Source: a virus. Taken from it: a DNA stretch of 21,023 nucleotides. Shown piece by piece: positions 10,536 through 21,023 of this stretch (within the stretch, counting starts at the first letter, position 1; every line of letters begins with the position of its first letter). The translations under genes and the position numbers were made by a program. The stretch is taken from positions 1-21,023 of the IMG/VR virus record IMGVR_UViG_3300021197_000658; one strand, given 5' to 3'. The notes beneath the pieces were generated by a model. That model was not told the origin of the DNA. It saw only the letters and a list, made by a program, of their open reading frames with translations, and did no database searches.

Positions 10536-10979
10536 CTATAAAGATTTAATGTCGTCTGGGTTTAAAATTGTAGCAATCACTTCGTCATCATTAATAATGC
10601 GAACTTCGTGATCATCTTCTAATTTAAAACGAGTGCCAGCATATCTGCCAATAAGGATCCAATCTCCTTTTTTAGCCCATGCTTCGTTGCCAAATTTATT
10701 TTCATCTTGGTAGGCCAAAGGTCCAACCTTTAGCACATAGCATATAACTGTGGACAAAGCTTCTCTGTCTACAGTTTCTTTTATTAATTGAATGCCACCA
10801 TCAGTTACTCCTTTGCCTTTGTACGGCAATACCAATAAACGCCATCCTGATGGATCGGGCATTCTATCTAGTAAGGATTTTTTTAGTAGGGTGGGGTCTA
10901 AAACTTTAGTTTCAGAACTGACAAATGCTTTGTCTAATTCAGATTCAGTTTCATTTTTTTTTGCGACATCTTTACTCAT
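10536..10979 (-). CDS. Phage GroES-like co-chaperonin (Cpn10 family)
   Basis: A 147-residue protein. The first 40 residues are an extra, polar segment. Residues 45-140 follow the GroES pattern: WRLLVLPYKG (46-55), a mobile-loop motif GGIQL (61-65) of the GGI.L type that docks into GroEL, a VLKVGPLAY strand, then KKGDWILIGRYAGTRFKLED and EVRIINDDEVIATIL, matching the C-terminal part of GroES. It would bind the host GroEL ring in place of host GroES to help fold viral proteins, probably capsid proteins, as known for T4 gp31. It sits directly upstream of the scaffold and capsid genes, which fits. Its start overlaps the previous stop by 8 bases. The family assignment is strong, the substrate is inferred. 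Confidence 0.85.
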   Translation of the reverse strand: MSKDVAKKNETESELDKAFVSSETKVLDPTLLKKSLLDRMPDPSGWRLLVLPYKGKGVTDGGIQLIKETVDREALSTVICYVLKVGPLAYQDENKFGNEAWAKKGDWILIGRYAGTRFKLEDDHEVRIINDDEVIATILNPDDIKSL

Positions 10980-11166
10980 CGTTATCTTCCATTTGCAGCG
11001 TTTCTTTTAAATCTTCTATAAGGGATCGAATCGCCGATAACTCTCCCATAAGATACTTGTAATCTTCCATCGATCTTACATTGCCCCCAGCAATGATGTC
11101 AACAGTGTTCTGTTCTCTTTTTCTTAAATTTTTAAATAAATATTCTGCTAAATTTACAGCATCCAT
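10972..11166 (-). CDS. Small helical hypothetical protein
   Basis: A 64-residue protein with a LAEYLFKNLRKREQNTVDII segment and an acidic end (LKETLQMEDNDE), almost certainly helical. The start has AGGAGAG about six bases upstream. The stop lies inside the next gene by 8 bases, suggesting coupling to the GroES-like protein. I know similar short proteins from tailed phages between portal and scaffold genes but not their role. Confidence 0.65.
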   Translation of the reverse strand: MDAVNLAEYLFKNLRKREQNTVDIIAGGNVRSMEDYKYLMGELSAIRSLIEDLKETLQMEDNDE

Positions 11167-11189
11167 GGCTCTCTCCTGCCTGTGTTATT

Positions 11190-12149
11190 TTATCTTCTAG
11201 GCCCAAACATTCCTCTGTCTCTTAAATTTGGGTTTCCATAATCGTAATCTTCAAACATTTTTTCTATTTTAGGTGGAGGTGTGTATATTGGGGCTGGAGT
11301 TGCCAAAGCTTCTCTAATGCTTTTTTGTCTATTTTCTACACTGCCATATTTCGCTATTGCATTTTTTATGCTTTCAGCCTTTCTTTCTTCTTCTTCTGCT
11401 TTTTTTCTTGCAAGTTGTTCGGTGGTTAGAGGCATTTCACCAATAGGAGTTCCTTGTGTTTGAAATGAAGGCGGAGGAGCTGGCATTGTTGGTGCTGGCA
11501 TTTGATACTGTGGTAATCCACTAAAATCTAAATCTGCTAATCTAGGTACTTTTGACAAATCTGGCAAGCCACTTAAATCTAAGTCTTCAAAATTCATATT
11601 TGGAAAAAACCCATTAGGCTCCGGCATTGTAGGTGGGGGTGTAAATACTGGTTCAGGTGCCGGTGTGGGTGTCGGTTCAAACACAGGTTCTGGCTCCATT
11701 GAATAAGGCTCCATTGTAAAAGATGGAGGCTCACCAAACTGTAAGTTTCCATTCACATCTATGTATGATTGAACTGGGTCTGGCATTGGATCTGTAGAGA
11801 CATCATATTGTGGAGCTGGAGCTGGAGCTGGCACATAAGGCGCAGGATCTCCTACTCCTCCTGTTGGGGGTGGTGCTGGCGTAGGCGCTGGTGCAGGAGC
11901 TGGCATCGGCATAGGCGCTGGAGGTCTATTAAATTGATCTCGAATTGGATCATATCCTGTTCTAGTTGGCATAAAAGCCTCTTGTGGTTGAACAGGGGCT
12001 TGATAACCTTCAGGCGTAAAATACGCAGGGCCACCCACCACGAGATTGTTTGCTGGTCTTGGGGGTGTAGGCATACGTTGAATATTGCGCTCTGCAAATA
12101 AGTCAGGCCTAGTAAGACCTGGAGGTGCAACTAAAACTCGATCAGACAT
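11190..12149 (-). CDS. Proline-rich low-complexity phage protein
   Basis: A 319-residue protein dominated by Pro, Ala and Met: residues about 77-145 and 150-245 contain runs of PAPAP, PTPAP and PPP. Two short repeats, DLDLSGLP (189-196) and DLDFSGLP (206-213), lie in the middle. A charged helix (RKKAEEEERKAESIKNA, about 248-264) follows and the last part ends RDRGMFGPRR. There is no signal peptide or membrane segment. Such Pro-rich linkers suggest an extended, flexible protein. It is encoded between portal-linked genes and the GroES-like gene, so a virion-internal or assembly role is possible. The region in other frames gives spurious long frames because of the GC-biased repeat codons. Function unknown. 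Confidence 0.7.
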   Translation of the reverse strand: MSDRVLVAPPGLTRPDLFAERNIQRMPTPPRPANNLVVGGPAYFTPEGYQAPVQPQEAFMPTRTGYDPIRDQFNRPPAPMPMPAPAPAPTPAPPPTGGVGDPAPYVPAPAPAPQYDVSTDPMPDPVQSYIDVNGNLQFGEPPSFTMEPYSMEPEPVFEPTPTPAPEPVFTPPPTMPEPNGFFPNMNFEDLDLSGLPDLSKVPRLADLDFSGLPQYQMPAPTMPAPPPSFQTQGTPIGEMPLTTEQLARKKAEEEERKAESIKNAIAKYGSVENRQKSIREALATPAPIYTPPPKIEKMFEDYDYGNPNLRDRGMFGPRR

Positions 12150-12157
12150 TAGTTAAT

Positions 12158-12313
12158 TTAACGTTTTTTGCTTTTTGCATTTTTTTTACCTTTATTCTTT
12201 CTTGCTGCTTCTAGAGCAATTGCAATAGCAGTTTTTTGTTTTTTACCACTACCCATTAATTCACTTATGTTAGCAGATATTGTCTTCTTACTGCTACCTT
12301 TTTTTAAGGGCAT
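12158..12313 (-). CDS. Very small basic phage protein (DUF6496-like)
   Basis: A 51-residue frame, shorter than most gene-finding cut-offs, beginning MPLKKGSSKKTISANISELM and continuing GSGKKQKTAIAIALEAARKN with a lysine-rich end. The MPLKKG.SKKTIS.NI.EL and AIAIAL..AR patterns are ones I know from a conserved family of small phage and bacterial proteins, which I believe is catalogued as DUF6496. It starts two bases after the stop of the 85-residue gene and ends nine bases before the next start, so it fills an otherwise empty gap in the operon. Role unknown; basic charge suggests nucleic-acid contact. Confidence 0.75.
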   Translation of the reverse strand: MPLKKGSSKKTISANISELMGSGKKQKTAIAIALEAARKNKGKKNAKSKKR

Positions 12314-12314
12314 A

Positions 12315-12572
12315 TTATTTCTTCTTTTTTACCTTGGCCTTAGTCTTAGCGACAGCTTTAGGTTTGGAAACTTTTTTTGCTTTTGGTTTGCTTTCTTTAA
12401 CGACTTTGGCAAGGACTTCATTCGCTTCCTTATCGGCTTCTTTTGCGATTTTGTCGATGTCGAGATTTGCATTCTCATTGATGATCGGTTGATTGCCATT
12501 GATTCTACGCTCCTCTTCTTCTTTTAATTGTTTTTTGTGCATTGCTGCCATTTCTTTTCTTATTGAACTCAT
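12315..12572 (-). CDS. Small lysine-rich protein coupled to portal
   Basis: An 85-residue protein. The N-terminal half is a charged helix (MAAMHKKQLKEEEERRING), the middle is acidic (NANLDIDKIAKEADKEANEV) and the C-terminal 25 residues are a Lys/Ala/Pro tract of the histone-H1-tail type (KPKAVAKTKAKVKKKK). The start overlaps the portal stop as ATGA, so it is translationally coupled. The H1-like tail suggests contact with DNA or with acidic partners. I do not recognise a family. Confidence 0.65.
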   Translation of the reverse strand: MSSIRKEMAAMHKKQLKEEEERRINGNQPIINENANLDIDKIAKEADKEANEVLAKVVKESKPKAKKVSKPKAVAKTKAKVKKKK

Positions 12573-15034
12573 TTGTTACCTCGCATGATATCCATTGCTT
12601 TGAATTGGTTTTGTTGTTCGATTCTTTCTCTTGCTATGTCATCTTTCATCTTAGCAATGTCTTGTTGAATAACCAAACGTTGTTCTGCTAATTGATTACT
12701 TTGCATAGCCTTCATAGCATCAAACTGTTGACGTTGTGCAAACTCTTCACGCTTGCGTTGTACATCATCAGCTTTGATGTCTAACTCTTTACCTCTTAGT
12801 TCTACCAAAGGATCAGGTTGTGGAGGGGGTGGCATGAAGATAGAATTTATTTGTTCCATCAACTGAGAGACAACTGCAGCCACGTCTCTTGCCACCGACT
12901 CTTGTAATTGTTGTTGATACTGCATGCCAACTTCTGGTGGCAATTGTTGTATCTGTTGCAAGGTTGCTTGGAACTCTGGGTTCTGAGCATTTTGCTGGTC
13001 AACAATTTCAGCAGCTCTAAACGAAACATGCTGATAAATGTGTGCTTGTATTAAAGATAATACAACTGGGTTTGATTGTGCAGTAATGGTTCCATACAAA
13101 GATACATGAGAATTAATATGTGAATCATGATCTTGGCCTTGGAAAGCTTGCGCTGGCATTCCAGCTATCAAACTTGCATTTTCACTTGCAGGGTCAATCG
13201 GTTGAGGTTGAGGGGGAGGTGGCAAAAGCTGTTCAATGTTTTGCACTCCCATTGAAGCATACATTCTTCTGTAAGCTTCATGAATTCCAGTAGGCCCATG
13301 AATCTCAGGATTGCTTTGTACTGTTCTAAGAAGTTCTTGAGCCATGATGACTCTTTGACTCATAGAAAAAGTATTAGGATCTGAGACAGGTAATACATCT
13401 ACCCTGTTATCAAAATCTAAAGCCTTAATGGTTTGATTGCCATTAGCTGTTGAATATGGATAAGCGGGTGGTAGATATTCGCCAAACACTTTGGATAAAA
13501 TTTCAAACTCAATTCTTTGACTTGCATGCAGTCTTTTGTGAATGGCACTCATAACACGAGTGCCACGTTCTAACAGAGCAACCGTTGTACCGACTGGCGC
13601 ATTTTGGTTTCCATCACCCACTTGAATGTCTGCGATAGATGCGAAACGCCTCCCACTGTCGACCAAGATCCCTAGGAGAGAGAGAAGGGTTTGACTTGGC
13701 TCCTTAAAAGGTAACGGTACAAAAGCGTCTCGCAAACTACCGCCGGGTGCGTCCATGTCTCTGAACTCGCCGGGCTGTAAAGGCTGGTCGTCATTACGAA
13801 TACGAATTCCTCTAGCTTTAAATCCAGCTGGTAAATTAGATAAAGTACCAGCGTCAATAAGCTGACGAAGAATTGAAGTTGAGGCTTTCGATAAGCCTCC
13901 AATCATGTGAGTCAAACCAAAGCCATAGAAACCTAGGCCTGGTAAAAACTTGTAATGCACAAAGTAATTGGTACGCTGTTTCAGCTGATCATTTTCTTTG
14001 TAGTTTCTGCGAATAGATAAAACTTTGTTATTAGCAATGGTGACAATGTATGGCAATTTAATTCCAGTCTCTTCACCTTGAGCGTTCATATCTTCAAAAC
14101 CTGGGATGTCTAGCTCTGTATGAATCTCATGCACTTTGCAAGTATCATCATCGCTGTAGCTTGGACTAACGCCTTGAAGCTCGTCTATCTCTTCTTGAAT
14201 TTCATCTGTTTCATCTGCCATCATGCTTGCAGAATCTATTTTTACATCGCTGTAAAAACCAACTTGTTGCAATTTGCGTATGTCGTTCATTGACATGTTA
14301 ATTACATGCGTGATTCTTGTAGCGCTGTGTAAGTCTGTTGCAGCATAAGGCACAATTAAATCTTCACTTGGAATAAATTTAGAGACTGCTCGTCCTAAGT
14401 TTTGGTCGTAGTAAACTTTTCTAAAAGCTGAACCAGATAGAGGTAGATAAAATAACATTTGATCAGTTTCAGGATCATATTCTTTCATGACCTGCATAAG
14501 CTGATAATTCATAAACTCTTGCACACGAGAAGCCTGTTGTTCAGTTTCCGGAGTTGTCATGCCAAGCACCTGTGTTTTGACTGGGCCTTGCGATGGTAAG
14601 AGTTCGTTGTAAGCTTGCGCTTGGAATTGGGTAACACTTTCTGCAAGCAATGGATGCATAACACCCGAAGCTCCTTCAAAGGGAGCAGATCTTTCTTCAT
14701 ACTTCATGCCAAGATATTCAAGGCCATTGCGATATGTTTTTTCCCAATCGCTACGAGATTCTTTATCAGCTTCAATGTTGCCCATCAGATCATTCTTTAA
14801 AGAATTAAGATCTGAATCATCTATGATGTCTGCTAAATTAGCATAGAAATCTGTGTTGTCCATAGGAGGTAATGGCGCGCCAAACTCGATGCTACCATCT
14901 TCCATTTGCTCAAATGAATCTAGCTCTGGGTTAGACTCAGCAACATCGACCTCAATGTCCATGTCTTTAGATCTGTCGCGTACTTTAAGGTCTACCTGCT
15001 CGTCAAAGGTAATTGCCTTATCTGTGGTTGCCAT
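12569..15034 (-). CDS. Portal protein (large, P22-like type)
   Basis: An 821-residue protein that I assign as the portal, the dodecameric ring through which DNA enters and leaves the head. The first 75 residues are acidic. Then come the conserved segments SGVMHPLLAESVTQFQAQA (123-141), MLFYLPLSGSAFRKVYYD (193-210) and IPSEDLIVPYAATDL (221-235). Further on are GLGFYGFGLTHMIGGLSKA, the NAPVGTTVALLERGTRV segment near residue 490, and a long Gln-rich helical C-terminal region with two proline tracts (LPPPPQPQP and MPPPPQPDP). Length is at the high end for portals, because of the C-terminal extension. It directly follows the stop of a basic protein gene, and terL is three genes upstream in the same operon. 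P22-like family is my best guess; the portal call itself is secure. Confidence 0.87.
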   Translation of the reverse strand: MATTDKAITFDEQVDLKVRDRSKDMDIEVDVAESNPELDSFEQMEDGSIEFGAPLPPMDNTDFYANLADIIDDSDLNSLKNDLMGNIEADKESRSDWEKTYRNGLEYLGMKYEERSAPFEGASGVMHPLLAESVTQFQAQAYNELLPSQGPVKTQVLGMTTPETEQQASRVQEFMNYQLMQVMKEYDPETDQMLFYLPLSGSAFRKVYYDQNLGRAVSKFIPSEDLIVPYAATDLHSATRITHVINMSMNDIRKLQQVGFYSDVKIDSASMMADETDEIQEEIDELQGVSPSYSDDDTCKVHEIHTELDIPGFEDMNAQGEETGIKLPYIVTIANNKVLSIRRNYKENDQLKQRTNYFVHYKFLPGLGFYGFGLTHMIGGLSKASTSILRQLIDAGTLSNLPAGFKARGIRIRNDDQPLQPGEFRDMDAPGGSLRDAFVPLPFKEPSQTLLSLLGILVDSGRRFASIADIQVGDGNQNAPVGTTVALLERGTRVMSAIHKRLHASQRIEFEILSKVFGEYLPPAYPYSTANGNQTIKALDFDNRVDVLPVSDPNTFSMSQRVIMAQELLRTVQSNPEIHGPTGIHEAYRRMYASMGVQNIEQLLPPPPQPQPIDPASENASLIAGMPAQAFQGQDHDSHINSHVSLYGTITAQSNPVVLSLIQAHIYQHVSFRAAEIVDQQNAQNPEFQATLQQIQQLPPEVGMQYQQQLQESVARDVAAVVSQLMEQINSIFMPPPPQPDPLVELRGKELDIKADDVQRKREEFAQRQQFDAMKAMQSNQLAEQRLVIQQDIAKMKDDIARERIEQQNQFKAMDIMRGNK

Positions 15035-15502
15035 TTATTTTTTTCCTGTAAATGCTTTACCAAGGCCTTTGATTGCTATACCACCGCCTTTCATTTTTCT
15101 GATTTTTGGTCTTGTGAGTCTAGATGCCACATCGTCTCCTGGCATAGCCATAGTAGGACGTACGCTTTCAAAGTTTGATGTATCTGATGTTCTATTTTTT
15201 CCAACCTTGCCTTTTGCAGAACGAGTTTGTTTTTTCTTTTTAGCAACAGGCTTTCTTGAAGGCGTACGTTCAGTTGTTCCGCCTTTTTGAGCAACTTTTC
15301 CAGCGCCTTTTTTGGTTACTCCAGCTTTTGCTTTACCGGCACTTGGAGCTAGAATTCCAGGCGATGCTGCAGCCGCTAATGCAGTTGCTATTTTGGTGTT
15401 AGGTGCAATTGTCCTTGCAACTCTATTGGCTGCTTGCAAAGGAGCTGTTTTTGTTTTGTAAGCTTTTCTCAAAGCTCCTTTTATTAATTTTCTTATGGCC
15501 AT
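15035..15502 (-). CDS. Small basic protein with GGGIAIKG C-terminal tail
   Basis: A 155-residue protein with a very basic, low-complexity body: Ala-rich segment ATALAAAASPGILAPSAG (38-55), then KKGAGKVAQKGG, KPVAKKKKQTRSAKGKVG, and a more ordered SVRPTMAMPGDDVASRL near 115-131. It ends MKGGGIAIKGLGKAFTGKK, a tail of the same type as that of the 182-residue protein two genes upstream. It ends exactly where the portal gene begins. It may be an internal head protein or a DNA-binding protein. No enzymatic motif. Confidence 0.65.
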   Translation of the reverse strand: MAIRKLIKGALRKAYKTKTAPLQAANRVARTIAPNTKIATALAAAASPGILAPSAGKAKAGVTKKGAGKVAQKGGTTERTPSRKPVAKKKKQTRSAKGKVGKNRTSDTSNFESVRPTMAMPGDDVASRLTRPKIRKMKGGGIAIKGLGKAFTGKK

Positions 15503-15516
15503 TATTTTTTACTCCA

Positions 15517-15798
15517 TTATTTTTTACTAAGGTCTTTTTTAATGTCTTTAATTGTTTGCCTTGCTCTTCTCATGCGAGCGCCGCCACCTTCATATGCAGT
15601 CATAGCTGCTGCTGTAGCTCCGGCTGCTCCAGCTACTTTAGCTGTAGTCTTGGCTGCTTTTACTGTTTTGTTGGGAAGATTCATTGGTTGTTTTTTATGG
15701 CTTGATGGCAACATGTCTTTAGAATCTTCTTTAAGATTCTGTTTAATTTTTGTTGTTGCTCTTTTAAGAGCCTTTGCTGTTTTGGATACTTTTCCCAT
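15517..15798 (-). CDS. Small basic protein with short hydrophobic segment
   Basis: A 93-residue protein. It is lysine-rich at both ends, with an Ala/Gly-rich hydrophobic patch (VAGAAGATAAAMTAYEGGG, about 55-73) followed by ARMRRARQTIKDIKKDL. The patch is short and small-residue-rich, so a true membrane helix is doubtful. A GGG-ARM-RRARQ segment recalls the Gly/Arg tails of neighbours. It lies in a row of three basic genes between terL and portal. Function unknown. Confidence 0.6.
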   Translation of the reverse strand: MGKVSKTAKALKRATTKIKQNLKEDSKDMLPSSHKKQPMNLPNKTVKAAKTTAKVAGAAGATAAAMTAYEGGGARMRRARQTIKDIKKDLSKK

Positions 15799-15799
15799 T

Positions 15800-16348
15800 T
15801 TACTTTAGAGCTTTACCGAAACCTCTTTTGGCTATGCCTACACCTCTTTTTTTACCACCCTTTCTCATGCCTTTGGATTTTACAACGCCACCATTTCTGT
15901 AGCCTTTGGATGTCATGCCGCCGCCATTAAACTTCTTAGGTTTTATAGATTTTTTGTTCCTTAACTGTGTCTTTGGAGAAAGAACAGTCTTCTTAGCAGC
16001 TTCCATATTTTCTTTTTTGACTTTAGCAATTCTAGCATCTTCAGCCATGCCTTTTTCAACCCTAGCATCAAACTCTTTTTTTGACATTCCTTTTTTACTT
16101 TTCTGTGCATCAGATAGCATTTTGTTAAAAGGTTTAGACATTTCTTTTCTTTGCGCAACAGTCATTCTTTTTTTAATTTTTTTACCGCTTGGCAAAGTTT
16201 TCATGCCAGTCAGCTCATCAACTTTTTTAGTAATGGCTTTTTGAACTTTAGGATCGTTGGACTTAACAGTTATTTTTCCATCTTTAATTCTTTGAGCAGT
16301 GTCTTTAGTTAACTCTGAAATGCTTTTAATAAATTTTGTTTTTGACAT
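15800..16348 (-). CDS. Lysine-rich protein with repetitive Gly/Lys C-terminal tail
   Basis: A 182-residue, lysine-rich protein. The N-terminal two thirds are helical and charged (ISELTKDTAQRIKDGKITV, MTVAQRKEMSKPFNKML). The last 40 residues are a near-repeat of short Gly/Lys units: SKGYRNGG, SKGMRKGG and then KRGVGIAKRGFGKALK at the end. The start has GAGG six bases upstream (GAGGTTAAT). It is the first gene after terL, the place where a small terminase subunit or packaging factor often lies, but I see no helix-turn-helix or other TerS-like feature. Confidence 0.65.
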   Translation of the reverse strand: MSKTKFIKSISELTKDTAQRIKDGKITVKSNDPKVQKAITKKVDELTGMKTLPSGKKIKKRMTVAQRKEMSKPFNKMLSDAQKSKKGMSKKEFDARVEKGMAEDARIAKVKKENMEAAKKTVLSPKTQLRNKKSIKPKKFNGGGMTSKGYRNGGVVKSKGMRKGGKKRGVGIAKRGFGKALK

Positions 16349-16356
16349 ATTAACCT

Positions 16357-17829
16357 CTAATAATATATTCGTTGTTTCGGTATTGGTTCATCGTCCTCTT
16401 CATCAGAGTCCAATCGAACAAAATTACCTTGACGAAATCTTAGTATAGCCTGTGTTGTTGAATCTACAAAATCATCGTGTTCACCAAATGGAAATGCTGC
16501 GCATTCCTCTATAACTTCCTCTGCAAATATGGCATCGGGAGCCCACACCATCCCTGCTTCAAACACAGGAGAGGCGCTGTGTACACGGGTGACTTTGTCC
16601 TTCCCCTTAGTGGGTCGGTAGTTCACCACAGGTATGCCCATCATTCTCAGCTCTTGCGTCAAAGGCGTACCACTTGCTTGAGATTCTACCAAGACAATGT
16701 CCGGTTGCCAATAGTTATATTCATCATAAGCTGTTGCTTTTAAATCTGGAAAGTCCCAGCGCCCTCGTTTAGCATCTAACAGCATGATGGATTCAGGTGC
16801 GCCATCGCTTGGTTTAAAAACGCCCCAAGTGGTAATGGCGCTATAGTCAGCAGTTTCTTTGGAACTAAAAGCTGTATCGTAAGACTGAAGTATGTAGGAG
16901 CAAGGAGGGGGATTGTCTTGCTCCCACATTTGCCACCACTCGCGTTTGAGTAGGGCACCCTCTTCAGAGGTAGGGTTTTGCATGTACTGAGCGTTCCACT
17001 TAGCCACAGGAATCGAAGCCTTTACAGCCTCTAACTCTTCAAGCTTCCAGAAGCCAGGCCACAAAGGGGTGTTGTCTTCCAAAATGGCAGGCAACTCTAA
17101 AATCTCCCATTGATCAGCATGGTCTTCGCTCATGCGCTTAATCAGTTTCTCAGTAAGATCCAATGTTGACCAGCGCGTCATCACAATCACAATAATACCA
17201 CCAGGCTGTAAACGCTGGCGCGGGCCGGAGGTGTACCATTCATAAGCCGACTCAAGGGCAGTGGGCGACAGAGCATCTTGCTCAGAATGTGGATCATCGA
17301 TAATGAGCAAGTCAGCGCCTCGACCTGTGATCGCGCCACCGACTCCAGCAGCAAAGTATTCGCCGCCTTTGTTCGTCTCCCACCGACCTGCTGATTTGGA
17401 GTCAGCAGACAAACTCACCTTGTTGAAGATTTGCTTGTACTCATCTGTGTCCATCAAGTTACGCACCTTGCGCCCGAACCTTGCCGAGAGTTCGGCGGTG
17501 TGAGTGGTTTGCATAATTTTCATGTCAGGCTTGAGGCCCATGATCCAACTCGGAAAGAACACAGAAGCAAACTCAGACTTGGTATGACGTGGGGGCATGT
17601 TAACGATAAGACGCTTGCACTTGCCTTTGGCCACAGCTTCGAGCTTTTGCGCAAAGAGCTTATGGTGCTCGCCTTCGATGAAGCCGTCCCAGACGTGCTT
17701 AACGTACTCGATGAAATCTGTTTGCGCTTTCTCGCGCACGCCCAGTTGCTTGATACGATTTTGAATTAAGACAATCTCTTTTAGAGCATCGTCTGGCACA
17801 TGTTCTAGTTTTGTGTTTTTTGCAGGCAT
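16357..17829 (-). CDS. terL: Terminase large subunit (DNA packaging ATPase-nuclease)
   Basis: I start this at the ATG at 17829 (490 residues, MPAKNTKLEHVPDDALK). An upstream TTG at 17880 is in frame but would add 17 unlikely residues. The ATPase domain has the deviant Walker A PPRHTKS (79-85) and Walker B LLIIDDP (174-180), followed by GRGADLL- and MTRWS-type segments seen in TerL. The linker has WNAQYMQNPTSEEGALLKRE (278-297). The nuclease domain has YDTAF with Asp318, then VLVESQASG and the final HDDFVDSTTQA, supplying the acidic cluster of the RNase-H-like fold. It cuts and pumps genomic DNA into the prohead at the portal. The first half is GC-richer than the rest of the window. No convincing Shine-Dalgarno site precedes the ATG, which is unusual here. 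Confidence 0.92.
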   Translation of the reverse strand: MPAKNTKLEHVPDDALKEIVLIQNRIKQLGVREKAQTDFIEYVKHVWDGFIEGEHHKLFAQKLEAVAKGKCKRLIVNMPPRHTKSEFASVFFPSWIMGLKPDMKIMQTTHTAELSARFGRKVRNLMDTDEYKQIFNKVSLSADSKSAGRWETNKGGEYFAAGVGGAITGRGADLLIIDDPHSEQDALSPTALESAYEWYTSGPRQRLQPGGIIVIVMTRWSTLDLTEKLIKRMSEDHADQWEILELPAILEDNTPLWPGFWKLEELEAVKASIPVAKWNAQYMQNPTSEEGALLKREWWQMWEQDNPPPCSYILQSYDTAFSSKETADYSAITTWGVFKPSDGAPESIMLLDAKRGRWDFPDLKATAYDEYNYWQPDIVLVESQASGTPLTQELRMMGIPVVNYRPTKGKDKVTRVHSASPVFEAGMVWAPDAIFAEEVIEECAAFPFGEHDDFVDSTTQAILRFRQGNFVRLDSDEEDDEPIPKQRIYY

Positions 17830-18075
17830 TTCAAAATGTTTTTTTCTGTGTGAAATATGGTACCTCAATAGGGGTCCCAAATGAAGAGGGGGGGGTAAAA
17901 TGGTTTTTTGGGTAATTGTATATATCGATAGTTATTTATATACACAAAAAAAAATCGCCACGCCCCTATATATGGGGGTGGGGGTCAAGCAAAACTCGCA
18001 ATCAAAAAATGGCACGCGATCCAATAGAGACCCAAAGTATGACATGTATGACACTTTGCTCGATGTCAAGTTTAC

Positions 18076-18106
18076 TTTACATAACAATCTCATTCAGAAA
18101 TATAAT
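18076..18106 (+). promoter_or_regulatory. Candidate early promoter
   Basis: TTTACA (18076-18081) and a perfect TATAAT (18101-18106) are 19 bases apart, slightly long for a sigma70 site. It would give a leader of over 100 bases for the gene at 18236. A second AT-rich box TATAAA (18162-18167) lies nearer but without a -35 partner. Confidence 0.35.
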
Positions 18107-18170
18107 GCAGTGTCAAATTTAATTGTGTTAATTGATGTATGTAATTTGCTTATCAAGTGTTTATAAATTA

Positions 18171-18188
18171 AACTAACTTTAGTTAGTT
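18171..18188. promoter_or_regulatory. AACTAAC dyad, candidate operator
   Basis: AACTAAC (18171-18177) and GTTAGTT (18182-18188) form a perfect inverted repeat with a four-base spacer TTTA. A third AACTAAC lies at 18215-18221, next to the Shine-Dalgarno site of the gene at 18236. The dyad lies just after TATAAA, where a repressor would block transcription. Confidence 0.4.
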
Positions 18189-18235
18189 GATATTTAAATA
18201 ACCAAACAATATGCAACTAACATGGAGAAAATAAA

Positions 18236-18595
18236 ATGGACAAACGATTAGACCAACTAAAGAAGCTTCAAGATAAAATGGCTTCTTTAAAATGGAGTAA
18301 AGAGGTATCAACATACCTTGAAATCTCAAATCAAATATCATCTTTAAAAGGCGCTATTAAAAAAGATGCTATGAGTCATATCATAGTTAATGACAATGGC
18401 TTTGGTGTTAGAAGAACGCTTAAAGAATTTAAAGATGAATTCATGCTAGGAACTAACATGACTGCTAACAAAAAAACCTTTAGTGGAATTCTTAAAGGTA
18501 AAGAGGTCATGGCTCATATTAAACTGACTCACAAGTCAGCGTATGAAGTGCAAGCTTCTAGCCTTCTAAAAATAGAGGGGTGGAACAATGCCTAA
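18236..18595 (+). CDS. Small hypothetical protein, early arm
   Basis: A 119-residue protein. The N-terminal half is a charged amphipathic helix (LDQLKKLQDKMASLKW, KEVSTYLEISNQISSLKG). The C-terminal half contains FGVRRTLKEFKDEFML and TANKKTFSGILKGKEVM. The start has GGAG eight bases upstream. The last 8 bases overlap the next gene, so the two are co-translated. I do not recognise a family. As the first rightward gene, near control elements, it may be an early accessory protein. Confidence 0.65.
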   Translation: MDKRLDQLKKLQDKMASLKWSKEVSTYLEISNQISSLKGAIKKDAMSHIIVNDNGFGVRRTLKEFKDEFMLGTNMTANKKTFSGILKGKEVMAHIKLTHKSAYEVQASSLLKIEGWNNA

Positions 18596-19115
18596 TCATA
18601 CCTCTAACTTTGTCGAAGTTGAAACTAATACAGGTTGCTCGAAAGAGCAACTTGCATTAGCTGAACTTAAAACCAAACTATCTATTCTAAAAGGTGGGTT
18701 TGATTTTAATGGAATGATACCTATGCCATCTGACCTAAAGAAAGCTTTAGAGATTGATAACCCATTTGATCATGGCGATGATTGGGTAAATGACATGGGA
18801 CATTTGGTGCCATCTGATCCACTCACCAGAAAGCGATGGATTAAAAAGCATGGTGCTGATAATTGGTATCGATGGAGCATAGACAATTGGGATACCAAAT
18901 GGAATGCTTACGATGTCGATATTGAGCTTGAGGGAGTTAATCGAATTCATGTCAACTTCTTAACAGCTTGGTCATGTCCAACTAAAATCTATCTCAAGCT
19001 AAAAGAGTATTGCGATGAGCATAATCTATCTTTAGATTGGGGTGTAAGCTTTGAGGGTGAAGATGAATACTTCGATCTGAAATACCAAGACCTTTTCGAT
19101 GGGATGTGGCAATAG
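18588..19115 (+). CDS. Api92-like protein (ferredoxin-like domain, DUF1281-type)
   Basis: A 175-residue protein starting MPNHTSNFVEVE. It has MIPMPSDL near residues 44-51, then NWYRWSIDNWDTKWNAYD near 91-108, and DIELEGVNRIHVNFLTAWSC followed by a helix and a final beta hairpin. This is the pattern of the Api92/YubB group of plasmid and phage proteins, whose C-terminal part is a ferredoxin-like fold and whose role is not known (WY.W..NWGTKWNAYD is the hallmark; here the Gly is Asp). It overlaps the previous gene by 8 bases and is followed by a terminator, so the two form a short operon. Confidence 0.75.
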   Translation: MPNHTSNFVEVETNTGCSKEQLALAELKTKLSILKGGFDFNGMIPMPSDLKKALEIDNPFDHGDDWVNDMGHLVPSDPLTRKRWIKKHGADNWYRWSIDNWDTKWNAYDVDIELEGVNRIHVNFLTAWSCPTKIYLKLKEYCDEHNLSLDWGVSFEGEDEYFDLKYQDLFDGMWQ

Positions 19116-19134
19116 ATAGACCAACACCAACTAA

Positions 19135-19158
19135 GGGAGCAATTGCTCCCTTTTTTTT
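19135..19158 (+). terminator. Rho-independent terminator of the first early operon
   Basis: GGGAGCAATTGCTCCC is a perfect 16-base palindrome, followed by eight T. It begins 19 bases after the stop of the Api92-like gene. Confidence 0.93.
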
Positions 19159-19226
19159 GTGCTGGCAAATTTCCAGGTTGGGAGTTCGGGCCCAGCAGCT
19201 TCAGTAGTTTGGATCTTTAAAAAAAA

Positions 19227-19292
19227 TTTTTACTATCATAAGAGTTGAACGCAAAAGAACGCAAAAAATTAAAAACGCCCAGGAACGCAAAA
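19227..19292. repeat. Repeat element A: TTTTTACTATCATA plus three ACGCAAAA iterons
   Basis: The 14-base core is at 19227-19240. ACGCAAAA follows at 19249, 19259 and 19285; between the last two is a half-copy, AACGCCC. Core and iterons recur together twice more in the right arm (20641 and 20756). Here the core follows an A8T5 tract rather than a strong hairpin. Confidence 0.85.
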
Positions 19293-19353
19293 GGCCAGGA
19301 TTGGCTTAACTTCGTTAATGGTAAACCTTAGACCACATCAAAAGAATTCAATG

Positions 19354-19380
19354 ACGGGCTTCTGGTGCTGCCGTTTTTTT
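19354..19380 (+). terminator. Weak, bulged hairpin with T-run
   Basis: ACGG (19354-19357) pairs with CCGT (19371-19374) and an inner GC pair is separated by a two-base bulge; seven T follow. No gene precedes it after the terminator at 19135, so if real it ends an untranslated transcript through repeat element A. It may be chance. Confidence 0.3.
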
Positions 19381-19406
19381 GAAAAGTTGTGTAAATTGTG
19401 TATAAT
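19379..19406 (+). promoter_or_regulatory. Strong sigma70-type promoter of the second early operon
   Basis: TTGAAA (19379-19384) and TATAAT (19401-19406) are separated by 16 bases. A GGTTAACC palindrome lies at 19410-19417, at the expected transcription start, and could be an operator. The leader is about 30 bases long and contains the binding site AAGGAGG (19431-19437). Confidence 0.75.
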
Positions 19407-19443
19407 ATAGGTTAACCAACCATAAACCATTAAGGAGGACATT

Positions 19444-19848
19444 ATGGGAAATAGAGCGATTATTGCTTTCAAAGAACCGAAAGCAAAAAGAAATGATAAA
19501 CAGATACCTTGTATCTATTTGCATTGGAATGGTGGAAGAGACTCGGTTGAGTCTTTTCTGGAAGCTGCAAGAAGACTAGATGTTAGAAGCACTGATCAAA
19601 ATTATTCAATGGCTAGACTAACTCAAATAATAAGCAATTACATAGGGGGGACGCTTTCGATTGGCTGTAGTACAGTTGGCGATTGGGCGTTAGACTTCTT
19701 AGACAATGGCGTTTATTGGGTGGATAACCTAGAAATCTATGATCGAACTGATACATATGAAGGCTATGAAGAGCAAAAAAATCATAATCAGGAAACAATG
19801 GTTCAAGAAATCCTAGAGATTAATGAGCCAATTTTTGGGGGTAAGTAA
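19444..19848 (+). CDS. Conserved phage/plasmid protein with LHWNGGRDSVE motif
   Basis: A 134-residue protein, MGNRAIIAFKEP..., with IYLHWNGGRDSVESFLEAAR (about 24-43) and a central YSMARLTQIISNYIGGTLSIG, then a VYWVDNLEIYDR segment. I recognise the MGNRA.I and YLHWNGGRDSVE motifs from small proteins widespread on phages and plasmids, with no assigned function. It is the first gene of the second early operon, with a perfect AAGGAGG seven bases... upstream and a strong promoter, so it should be well expressed. There is no membrane segment or known catalytic motif. Confidence 0.8.
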   Translation: MGNRAIIAFKEPKAKRNDKQIPCIYLHWNGGRDSVESFLEAARRLDVRSTDQNYSMARLTQIISNYIGGTLSIGCSTVGDWALDFLDNGVYWVDNLEIYDRTDTYEGYEEQKNHNQETMVQEILEINEPIFGGK

Positions 19849-19850
19849 TC

Positions 19851-20033
19851 ATGAGAACATATAAAATAATAAGGTTCTATGAAAAAGATAGCTTTCTAAC
19901 GCCTGCTAAAAGAACAATAAAAAAAGGGCTTACACTTGCGCAAGCCCAAGAACATTGTCAACGAGATAATACTTCAGGCTTTCATAATAATACAAGGTGG
20001 TTCGACGGATACACTAAGGAGGTGAAATCATGA
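19851..20033 (+). CDS. Small conserved phage protein
   Basis: A 60-residue protein: MRTYKIIRFYEKDSF, then KRTIKKGLTLAQAQEHCQRD and RWFDGYTKE. The R.IK.GLTL.QAQ.HC pattern followed by WFDGY is common in small proteins of many tailed phages, function unknown. It starts two bases after the previous stop, in the same operon. The usual Asp-Pro-Glu-Thr-Ser stretch after the His-Cys is replaced here by RDNTSGFHNN, so this is a divergent copy. Confidence 0.75.
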   Translation: MRTYKIIRFYEKDSFLTPAKRTIKKGLTLAQAQEHCQRDNTSGFHNNTRWFDGYTKEVKS

Positions 20034-20269
20034 GTCAGGCAAAATATATTGAAGCCCATTATACGCAAGTATTACAATTTGATATTGAAGATTTAGATAT
20101 AGATTGGAAAGATGTCAAAGATTATTGGGTTAAGTGGGCAAAACTTCACATTGAACTTAAAAATGGAGAAGTTGTAGAAACTGAAATGTATCATGAATGT
20201 GATATGGATTGGAAACATCCAGATAAAACAGAAGCCTTTGATGAAAATTTTTACGAGGTGAAATTATGA
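20030..20269 (+). CDS. Small acidic hypothetical protein
   Basis: A 79-residue acidic protein with many Trp and Asp: LQFDIEDLDIDWKDVKDYWV, WAKLHIELKNGEVVETEMYH and CDMDWKHPDKTEAFDE. It overlaps the previous gene by four bases (ATGA). AGGAGG lies seven bases before its ATG. Likely a small soluble protein; an acidic, Trp-rich surface could mimic DNA, but that is only a suggestion. I do not recognise a named family. Confidence 0.7.
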   Translation: MSQAKYIEAHYTQVLQFDIEDLDIDWKDVKDYWVKWAKLHIELKNGEVVETEMYHECDMDWKHPDKTEAFDENFYEVKL

Positions 20270-20424
20270 GAGAAGGATTTATCTATGGACTACTTACCGC
20301 ATTGGCGGTGAGTGTCCCTGTTATGTTAGTTGATCATTTGGCCATCATTCCTGCATTTCTGGTTTTCCTATCAGGCTGCTTGTTCAGTATTTCAGCTGGC
20401 GCATTTATAAAACCAACAAAATAA
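20266..20424 (+). CDS. Small membrane protein with two hydrophobic segments
   Basis: A 52-residue frame, below common length cut-offs, starting in an ATGA overlap with the previous gene and ending in a TAATG overlap with the next. It reads [20 protein letters not shown], then [20 protein letters not shown] and a short [12 protein letters not shown] tail. Two hydrophobic stretches separated by Asp-His suggest two short membrane helices. Both gene couplings and a GAGG site eight bases upstream argue that it is real. The function is unknown; small phage membrane proteins often act in host takeover or lysis timing, but nothing here shows that. Confidence 0.7.
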
Positions 20425-20606
20425 TGGATAACATAAAAGCAATTGAAATTATTGAAGACATTGATAATGGTGTTTACAGTGAAAAAGATTTTATTTCTGC
20501 ATGGCAACATTTAGTAGATACAGGCATAGCCTGGAAACTTCAAGGAGGCTATGGGCGCAAAGCGCATGAGTTAATTCAAAACGGTTTAATCAAACCACCG
20601 CAATAA
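20424..20606 (+). CDS. Small conserved phage protein
   Basis: A 60-residue protein, [20 protein letters not shown] followed by [21 protein letters not shown] and [15 protein letters not shown]. The AWQ.L.DTG.AW.LQG..GR.A..LI..G pattern is a familiar one in small proteins of many phages with no assigned function. Its start overlaps the previous stop by one base (TAATG) and it is the last gene of the operon, with a terminator 9 bases on. Confidence 0.8.
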
Positions 20607-20614
20607 TTCCTCCA

Positions 20615-20645
20615 GGGGGTGAAAGTCCCCCACCTATTTTTTTTT
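20615..20645 (+). terminator. Rho-independent terminator of the second early operon
   Basis: GGGGG (20615-20619) pairs with CCCCC (20627-20631) around TGAAAGT. ACCTA and then nine T follow (20637-20645). The T-run merges into the 14-base repeat core. Confidence 0.8.
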
Positions 20646-20669
20646 ACTATCATACGCAAAAACGCAAAA
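20641..20669. repeat. Repeat element B: TTTTTACTATCATA plus two ACGCAAAA iterons
   Basis: The core at 20641-20654 starts inside the T-run of the terminator. ACGCAAAA follows at 20654 and 20662, eight bases apart, so the first iteron shares its first A with the core. Confidence 0.85.
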
Positions 20670-20730
20670 ATTATGTTATGGTTCGCATATGTCTATGTTC
20701 ATAGGCTAGTTTTCTCCAAAAACTTATAGA

Positions 20731-20760
20731 TCCGGGGCCGCAAGGCCCCAGGATTTTTTT
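20731..20760 (+). terminator. Strong terminator with no gene before it
   Basis: GGGGCC and GGCCCC pair around a GCAA tetraloop (20734-20749). TCC and GGA extend the stem past a bulged A, and seven T follow. The previous terminator is only 86 bases upstream and no gene lies between, so it is an orphan. It could end a small noncoding RNA. Confidence 0.85.
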
Positions 20761-20844
20761 ACTATCATAGAACGCAAACGCAAAAATCCGGATCCAGGCG
20801 CAAAAAAGCAGCTGGACGCAAAAAAAATGCGTCAGGACGCAAAA
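20756..20844. repeat. Repeat element C: TTTTTACTATCATA plus five iterons
   Basis: The core at 20756-20769 again emerges from the terminator T-run. ACGCAAA occurs at 20772, 20778, 20816 and 20837, with a GCGCAAAA variant at 20798. Late spacings are about 18-21 bases, near two helical turns. The copy at 20816 is half of a GACGCA / TGCGTC dyad with an A7 spacer (20815-20833). Confidence 0.85.
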
Positions 20845-20943
20845 ATATTAAGCTTATGTCCGCGTGAGTGGGAAAATGCAAATAATCATTCTCAATATAA
20901 AGTTTTTATTATCTGTAGTTATCTTTTTAATTTGTGTTATTGA

Positions 20944-20973
20944 TTGTATATTTTGATTAATAACTGTTATAAT
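20944..20973 (+). promoter_or_regulatory. Candidate promoter of the third early operon
   Basis: TTGTAT (20944-20949) and a perfect TATAAT (20968-20973) are 18 bases apart. A second possible pair, TTGATT (20953-20958) and TATATA (20977-20982), overlaps it. The start codon at 21007 follows an AAGGAG site (20990-20995) 11 bases away. Confidence 0.5.
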
Positions 20974-21006
20974 TTGTATATAAGATAATAAGGAGAAAAT
21001 TATATA

Positions 21007-21023
21007 ATGCTTAAAATACAAGC
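21007..21023 (+). CDS. Start of a gene cut by the window edge
   Basis: Only five full codons (MLKIQ) are visible before the window ends. The start is supported by an AAGGAG site and a promoter-like sequence upstream, both in the same orientation as the early genes. Nothing can be said about the product. Confidence 0.45.

Follow-up and report, generated by a model that had tools for sequence, protein, structure and literature searches.

The window, by which we mean the whole stretch of DNA analysed here, is an entire virus record of 21,023 bases, from a marine phage. Leftward genes occupy 0.1-17.9 kb and include those for the capsid, the portal and the terminase large subunit (TerL), and small rightward genes start from 18.2 kb. 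TerL is closest to that of pelagiphages HTVC023P and HTVC027P, phage 023Pt_psg01 and phage DSL-LC04, with 59-61% amino acid identity; the two pelagiphages are grown on SAR11 HTCC1062. The record is a fragment, as are many of the relatives compared, and it lacks a gene for the terminase small subunit (TerS). The right-hand end carries three intergenic sites, with arrays of short repeats lying within ~3 kb of TerL, and its features are the following:

16357-17880, - strand: TerL, left anchor of the region (phrog_38, E 1.9e-113)
19133-19159, + strand: intrinsic terminator with an 8-pair stem and a T-run, closing the 18236-19115 gene pair
19227-19240, + strand: site 1 core TTTTTACTATCATA, found at the same place in contigs L331, L330 and L238
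19249-19292, + strand: site 1 repeats ACGCAAAA at 19249, 19259 and 19285, seen in the sequence and the alignment
19379-19406, + strand: promoter of the gene at 19444, placed after site 1, a sigma-70 type TTGAAA-16-TATAAT agreeing with the consensus at 11 of 12 bases
20615-20640, + strand: hairpin GGGGGTGAAAGTCCCCC with a T-run, ahead of site 2; the hairpin is kept without the T-run in L337 and L340-L346
20641-20654, + strand: site 2 core, an exact match
20654-20669, + strand: site 2 repeats ACGCAAAA at 20654 and 20662, covering the -35 region of a putative small-RNA promoter
20677-20760, + strand: putative phage small RNA, with a -10-like TATGGT at 20677-20682, the RNA at about 20688-20756 and its terminator at 20734-20749
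20756-20769, + strand: site 3 core, sitting directly on the T-run of the small-RNA terminator
20772-20844, + strand: site 3 repeats at 20772, 20778, 20798 (GCGCAAAA), 20816 and 20837, read from the sequence
20845-21007, + strand: AT-rich stretch from site 3 to the gp88 gene (PF17338), conserved in the alignment and holding AATGCAAATAA, paired TTATC boxes ~10 bp apart and then the gp88 promoter region

The three copies of the 14-base core are exact, all on the + strand and intergenic, at the positions given by an earlier note on this DNA, and TTTTTACTATCATA is the sole 14-mer with at least three copies in the record when both strands are counted. The note had also held that such a recurrence is not chance, which was borne out: allowing up to two mismatches the window contains 4 matches against 0.51 expected, a number reached by no shuffle. 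ACGCAAA is present in 13 copies (3.0 expected), and each of the nine + strand copies beyond 19 kb comes after a core. The CGCAAAA-type repeats following the cores amount to ten, in agreement with the previous tally, distributed as three, two and five at sites 1, 2 and 3, with the variant at 20798 included. Core and first repeat are separated by 8 bases at site 1 and by 2 at site 3, and share a single base at site 2; the spacing of the window arrays is less regular than that of the arrays of relatives. Terminator-like hairpins were located near the sites (19133-19152, 20615-20631 and 20734-20749); the site 1 core lies ~75 bases beyond its terminator, outside the T-run. Rfam gave no match above the gathering score in the window, only sub-threshold terminator look-alikes at 19129-19156, and a DNA similarity search of phage records with 20600-20960 returned nothing meaningful.

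Directly upstream of site 2 the window carries a small DUF7417 gene (PF24192, 20424-20606), where several relatives have other genes instead. The sequence that follows site 1 (19292-19375 in the window, 5340-5417 in L331 and 7305-7390 in L238) reads ...GQDWLNFVNAMGQVASKEFNDGLLVNPFF in L331 and has stops in the window and in L238; it is possibly the remnant of a gene end.

Sites 2 and 3 flank a 70-nt unit with no protein gene in it; the placement of all copies between operons and outside genes proposed in the note stands as regards their being intergenic, but at these two sites the neighbour is a short noncoding unit and not a protein operon. The terminator hairpin is preceded by two others, of which the second has a CUCC (anti-Shine-Dalgarno-like) loop, and the unit is found at 20677-20760 in the window, 6480-6562 in L331, 7888-7973 in L238 and 3641-3727 in L337, being present also in L340-L346, which like L337 lack the core. 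The window fold is better than 200 of 200 shuffles (z -4.0), while the copies of L337 (z -0.9) and L346 (z -0.4) do not beat all of theirs, so that fold energy alone is not decisive. Three pairs of the terminator stem vary with pairing kept, two of them turning G-C into A-T and the third C-G into G-C, and in the first hairpin G-C is replaced by A-T or G-T. The conserved unit is probably a phage-encoded small RNA.

Regarding the closest relatives, TerL of L331 is 100% identical over the aligned region and that of L238 92%, and in both contigs all three sites occupy the same places as in the window, with an additional core 41 bases after the first at site 1. From terL to gp88 these two contigs have partly different small genes, indicating that the sites are kept while the surrounding genes turn over. 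A search of viral contigs with the core alone gave mostly chance matches, and the core plus two repeat units retrieved six contigs: L238 and L331 with the whole layout, L330 at site 1, and L170, L328 and L329, which were discarded as relatives since their matches are isolated and look like chance. The core is limited to the subclade of the window, L331, L330 and L238. Upstream of the gp88 gene in other relatives (L334, L335, L337, L339-L343, L345-L348, L353, L354 and L436) a terminator precedes core-less arrays of the degenerate decamer G(A/G)NCGCAAAA, and the site 3 repeats are syntenic with the arrays of L331, L238, L334-L348, L353, L354 and L436. The terminator-core-repeat layout singled out by the earlier note is real in the window but is not a general unit, as relatives have the repeats and lack the core; the CGCAAAA repeats are the deeper feature and predate the core. 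A homologue of site 1 was found in L409, L436, L441 and L446, a similar array follows a T-run in L248 (TerL 73% identical), and the 29-kb relative G001 has three motif pairs, all at the gp88 site. Neither of the outcomes that the note regarded as fatal (relatives devoid of the repeat, or cores inside genes without iterons) was encountered; the repeats recur intergenically in related phages.

The repeat dimer is widespread in bacterial genomes, apparently by chance, and was rejected as a host signal for that reason. Similar perfect 10-bp repeats were observed in unrelated phage or bacterial DNA (L425 127-163, L543 3424-3460, L397 14231-14267 and L491 1011-1047), those of L425, L543 and L397 sitting just after a terminator hairpin (TTCGCAAAAG five times, GAACGCAAAA four times).

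More distant TerL relatives (60-75% identical), HTVC023P and HTVC027P among them, have the same kind of array built on other lineage-specific motifs: GTCGGG in L252, L255, L256 and L260, TAGGGTC in L247, AGGGGC in L257, TTGCCCAC in L272, ATGTTATT in L311, GGCTTG in HTVC027P, GCTCGC in 023Pt_psg01 and CTAGGAAA in HTVC023P. The array behind the PNHT-type gene, at the place of site 1, is made of CGCAAAA in the window's clade and of GTCGGG in L256, and one array of L252 comes after a terminator and ahead of a promoter. The motif is common to TerL clusters at least 77% identical (77-88% in the L252 group) and differs between clusters; L256 has GTCGGG like L252, L255 and L260 despite a TerL only ~65% identical to theirs, hence TerL relationships do not account for the motif in every case. 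The identity of TerS is 81-94% among the relatives with CGCAAAA arrays and ~52% or less when these are compared with relatives that have other motifs. A second conserved noncoding region lies directly upstream of TerS (L573 8990-9240, L409 12720-13000, L436 5350-5650 and L575 10970-11170); in the window's clade GCACA/TGTGC motifs recur within it, next to an inverted repeat, CTATAGTTCTCTATAGAG, that is conserved, and it is another candidate for a packaging site.

The arrays are helically phased. Neighbouring repeats in the arrays of the clade are exactly 10 bp apart in 62 of 125 spacings, 20-22 bp in 26 and 30-31 bp in 16, a set that includes many near-identical arrays; the 10- and 20-bp peaks persist in ten representative arrays. 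Moreover, the arrays are strand-polar. The motif pairs of HTVC027P are all on the + strand at 16505-17725, between TerS (15254-15781) and TerL (20471); those of HTVC023P, also all +, are at 11680-11743, just ahead of TerS at 11866; and those of 023Pt_psg01, again all +, are at 15449-16263 between TerS and TerL, with no motif pairs elsewhere in these three genomes. All 32 GTCGGG pairs of L256, L252, L260 and L255 are on the TerL strand and none lies elsewhere in these contigs of up to 43 kb. Altogether, searches of complete genomes or long contigs with four motifs (GTCGGG, GGCTTG, CTAGGAAA and GCTCGC) located each on a single strand and nowhere but between the terminase genes or next to them, in surveys that were carried out after the repeats had been seen and covered both strands of whole contigs. 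Inverted copies are also present in L257, thus polarity is not absolute.

Each genome has two to five arrays, spread over 1-5 kb, and in L247, L257, L311 and HTVC023P arrays are directly upstream of TerS. In the Roseobacter phage CRP-901, which has adjacent terminase genes, no obvious array was detected in the 549 bases before TerS. Noncoding DNA makes up 27-44% of the terminase interval in three complete genomes (HTVC027P 14740-20470, HTVC023P 10667-17221, 023Pt_psg01 13512-17968) and 2.0-3.5% of their sequence outside it, a noncoding share of the interval that in the HTVC023P type is ten or more times that of the remaining genome; most of the long intergenic gaps of HTVC023P-type phages are contained in it.

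The note had offered three interpretations: the sites could be an origin, an array to which a regulator binds, or members of a family of dispersed repeats. This proposal is partly supported: an array bound by a regulator or another protein fits best, given the ~10-bp phasing, the strand polarity and a motif that changes with lineage at a constant location. Phased repeats fixed in place whose sequence drifts by lineage are the trace expected of a coevolving DNA-binding protein. We tentatively favor a fast-evolving phage protein, most likely TerS, as the one binding these arrays in a pac/cosB-like manner, because they are confined to the terminase region, strand-polar and indifferent to gene orientation. 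One sequence-specific phage protein would assemble on the clustered repeats along one face of the DNA; the arrays belong to a family-wide noncoding set that HTVC023P-like phages have between their terminase genes or next to them, and which TerS, as the putative binding protein, may use as recognition or loading sites for DNA packaging, with the direction of packaging presumably set by their strand polarity. The 14-base core is, in this reading, a second lineage-specific element, added next to the repeats in the window's subclade. A bolder and rather doubtful proposition is that several strand-polar phased arrays across the terminase interval are recognised by the packaging or genome-processing system of HTVC023P-like phages, every lineage having a motif of its own that coevolves with the cognate protein; we found no description of such a dispersed multi-array recognition region for tailed phages.

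As in pac and cosB, the arrays are positioned at or near the terminase genes and consist of direct repeats of fixed polarity, excepting L257; the chief difficulty for recognition by TerS is their number, since pac is usually one region and here each genome has more. Also against it, the array beside TerS in the window's clade carries a different motif (GCACA), and several arrays are close to promoters. Our second choice, which we consider possible though clearly less probable, is that a phage regulator uses the arrays as operators or activator sites to control the small accessory transcription units between the terminase genes. Sites 1 and 3 are roughly 90 bp upstream of promoter regions, the site 2 repeats stand in place of the TTTACA that relatives have at -35 of the putative small-RNA promoter, and the AAGC-type arrays of HTVC027P run into TTGACA before gp33 and gp34, two genes that according to PMC12753301 form a temporal expression cluster of their own. 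However, a position upstream of a promoter, seen at window sites 1 and 2, is not general: the site 1 array of L409 and L436 lies between convergent terminators without a downstream promoter, it is between convergent genes in L446 and L256 too and between divergent ones in L260, and the control region by the CI-like HTH gene is without such repeats. With arrays between convergent, divergent or, in the window, tandem units, they are not simply operators of the adjacent promoter.

A role as iterons of a replication origin seems unlikely to us. In satellite phage P4, ori and crr are both needed and are bound by the primase-helicase, and the arrays could likewise represent two or more distant clusters that are both required; direct repeats of ~10 bp and the conserved AT-rich stretch after site 3 would suit this function, and the large Prim-Pol/PriCT_1 protein of the clade could act like P4 alpha. 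This AT-rich region exists after site 3 only, where it overlaps the promoter region. The lack of an AT-rich flank at site 1 speaks against an origin. The checks suggested in the earlier note, GC skew and replication-gene neighbours, added nothing to the origin option: no skew switch occurs at the arrays of HTVC027P, HTVC023P or 023Pt_psg01, and no known initiator adjoins the arrays, the Prim-Pol, helicase, Sak4-like annealing protein and RusA being elsewhere in relatives. Still more improbable is an action through DNA shape, by which phased A-tracts would curve the DNA and insulate units or dock a host nucleoid protein. In relatives AA/TT phasing at the arrays does reach the 98.7-99.99th percentile, and that of the window's arrays the 95-99th, but the GTCGGG, GGCTTG and GCTCGC arrays of other lineages have no A-tracts; these GC-rich motifs exclude A-tract curvature as a common property or function. 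As for the core, its TATCAT (+ strand) or TATGAT (- strand) resembles a -10 box, with the repeats at the start or at -35, yet we give a promoter hardly any credence: the promoter scan yields no site at any core, no -35 stands at a fixed spacing on either strand, ~11 bases are constant, exceeding what a -10 box needs, and the core-repeat gap of the window is variable (-1 to 8). For sigma-70, neither strand offers a -35/-10 pair at 16-18 nt at any core, and such a promoter was rejected. CsrA-like GGA repeats in RNA were rejected too, GGA not being conserved (GAACGC, GATCGC) and some arrays lying between terminators.

HTVC023P-type phages are described in PMC10149686 and PMC9599517 as being among the most abundant in the ocean; a term search within open papers found no mention of the repeats. 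As packaging sites, the arrays would provide a testable recognition code of the small terminase as well as a sequence tag by which lineages can be told apart; as operators, they would mark accessory units that are activated apart from the usual early, middle and late classes.

Several known systems resemble these arrays in part. Iteron origins, including P4 ori/crr, likewise have short noncoding direct repeats in ~10-bp phase and more than one cluster; unlike them, the arrays have no adjacent initiator or skew switch, and relatives have one cluster enclosed by convergent terminators. The TTGC-N6-TTGC pattern of lambda CII sites also appears on the reverse strand of the decamer array; here, however, there are long arrays and not one pair, their orientation is opposite to that of the promoters, and no match to the CII family appeared. 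Plasmid operator or centromere arrays of heptads or decamers, of the ParR/omega type, are also helically phased direct repeats at several intergenic places per genome, whereas no partition gene was found here and a single weak ribbon-helix-helix match, in L575 only, was below the cut-off. As described in PMC4737164, the pac DNA of SPP1-like phages has direct repeats at the small-terminase gene and alternating AT and GC runs suited to wrapping round the TerS ring. Our arrays differ from such SPP1/SF6-type sites in being several and separate in each genome, in following terminators, in a motif that varies among lineages and in a binding that is predicted; they share with them the direct repeats at or near the small-terminase gene, the AT runs alternating with GC and a length of ~100 bp suited to wrapping.
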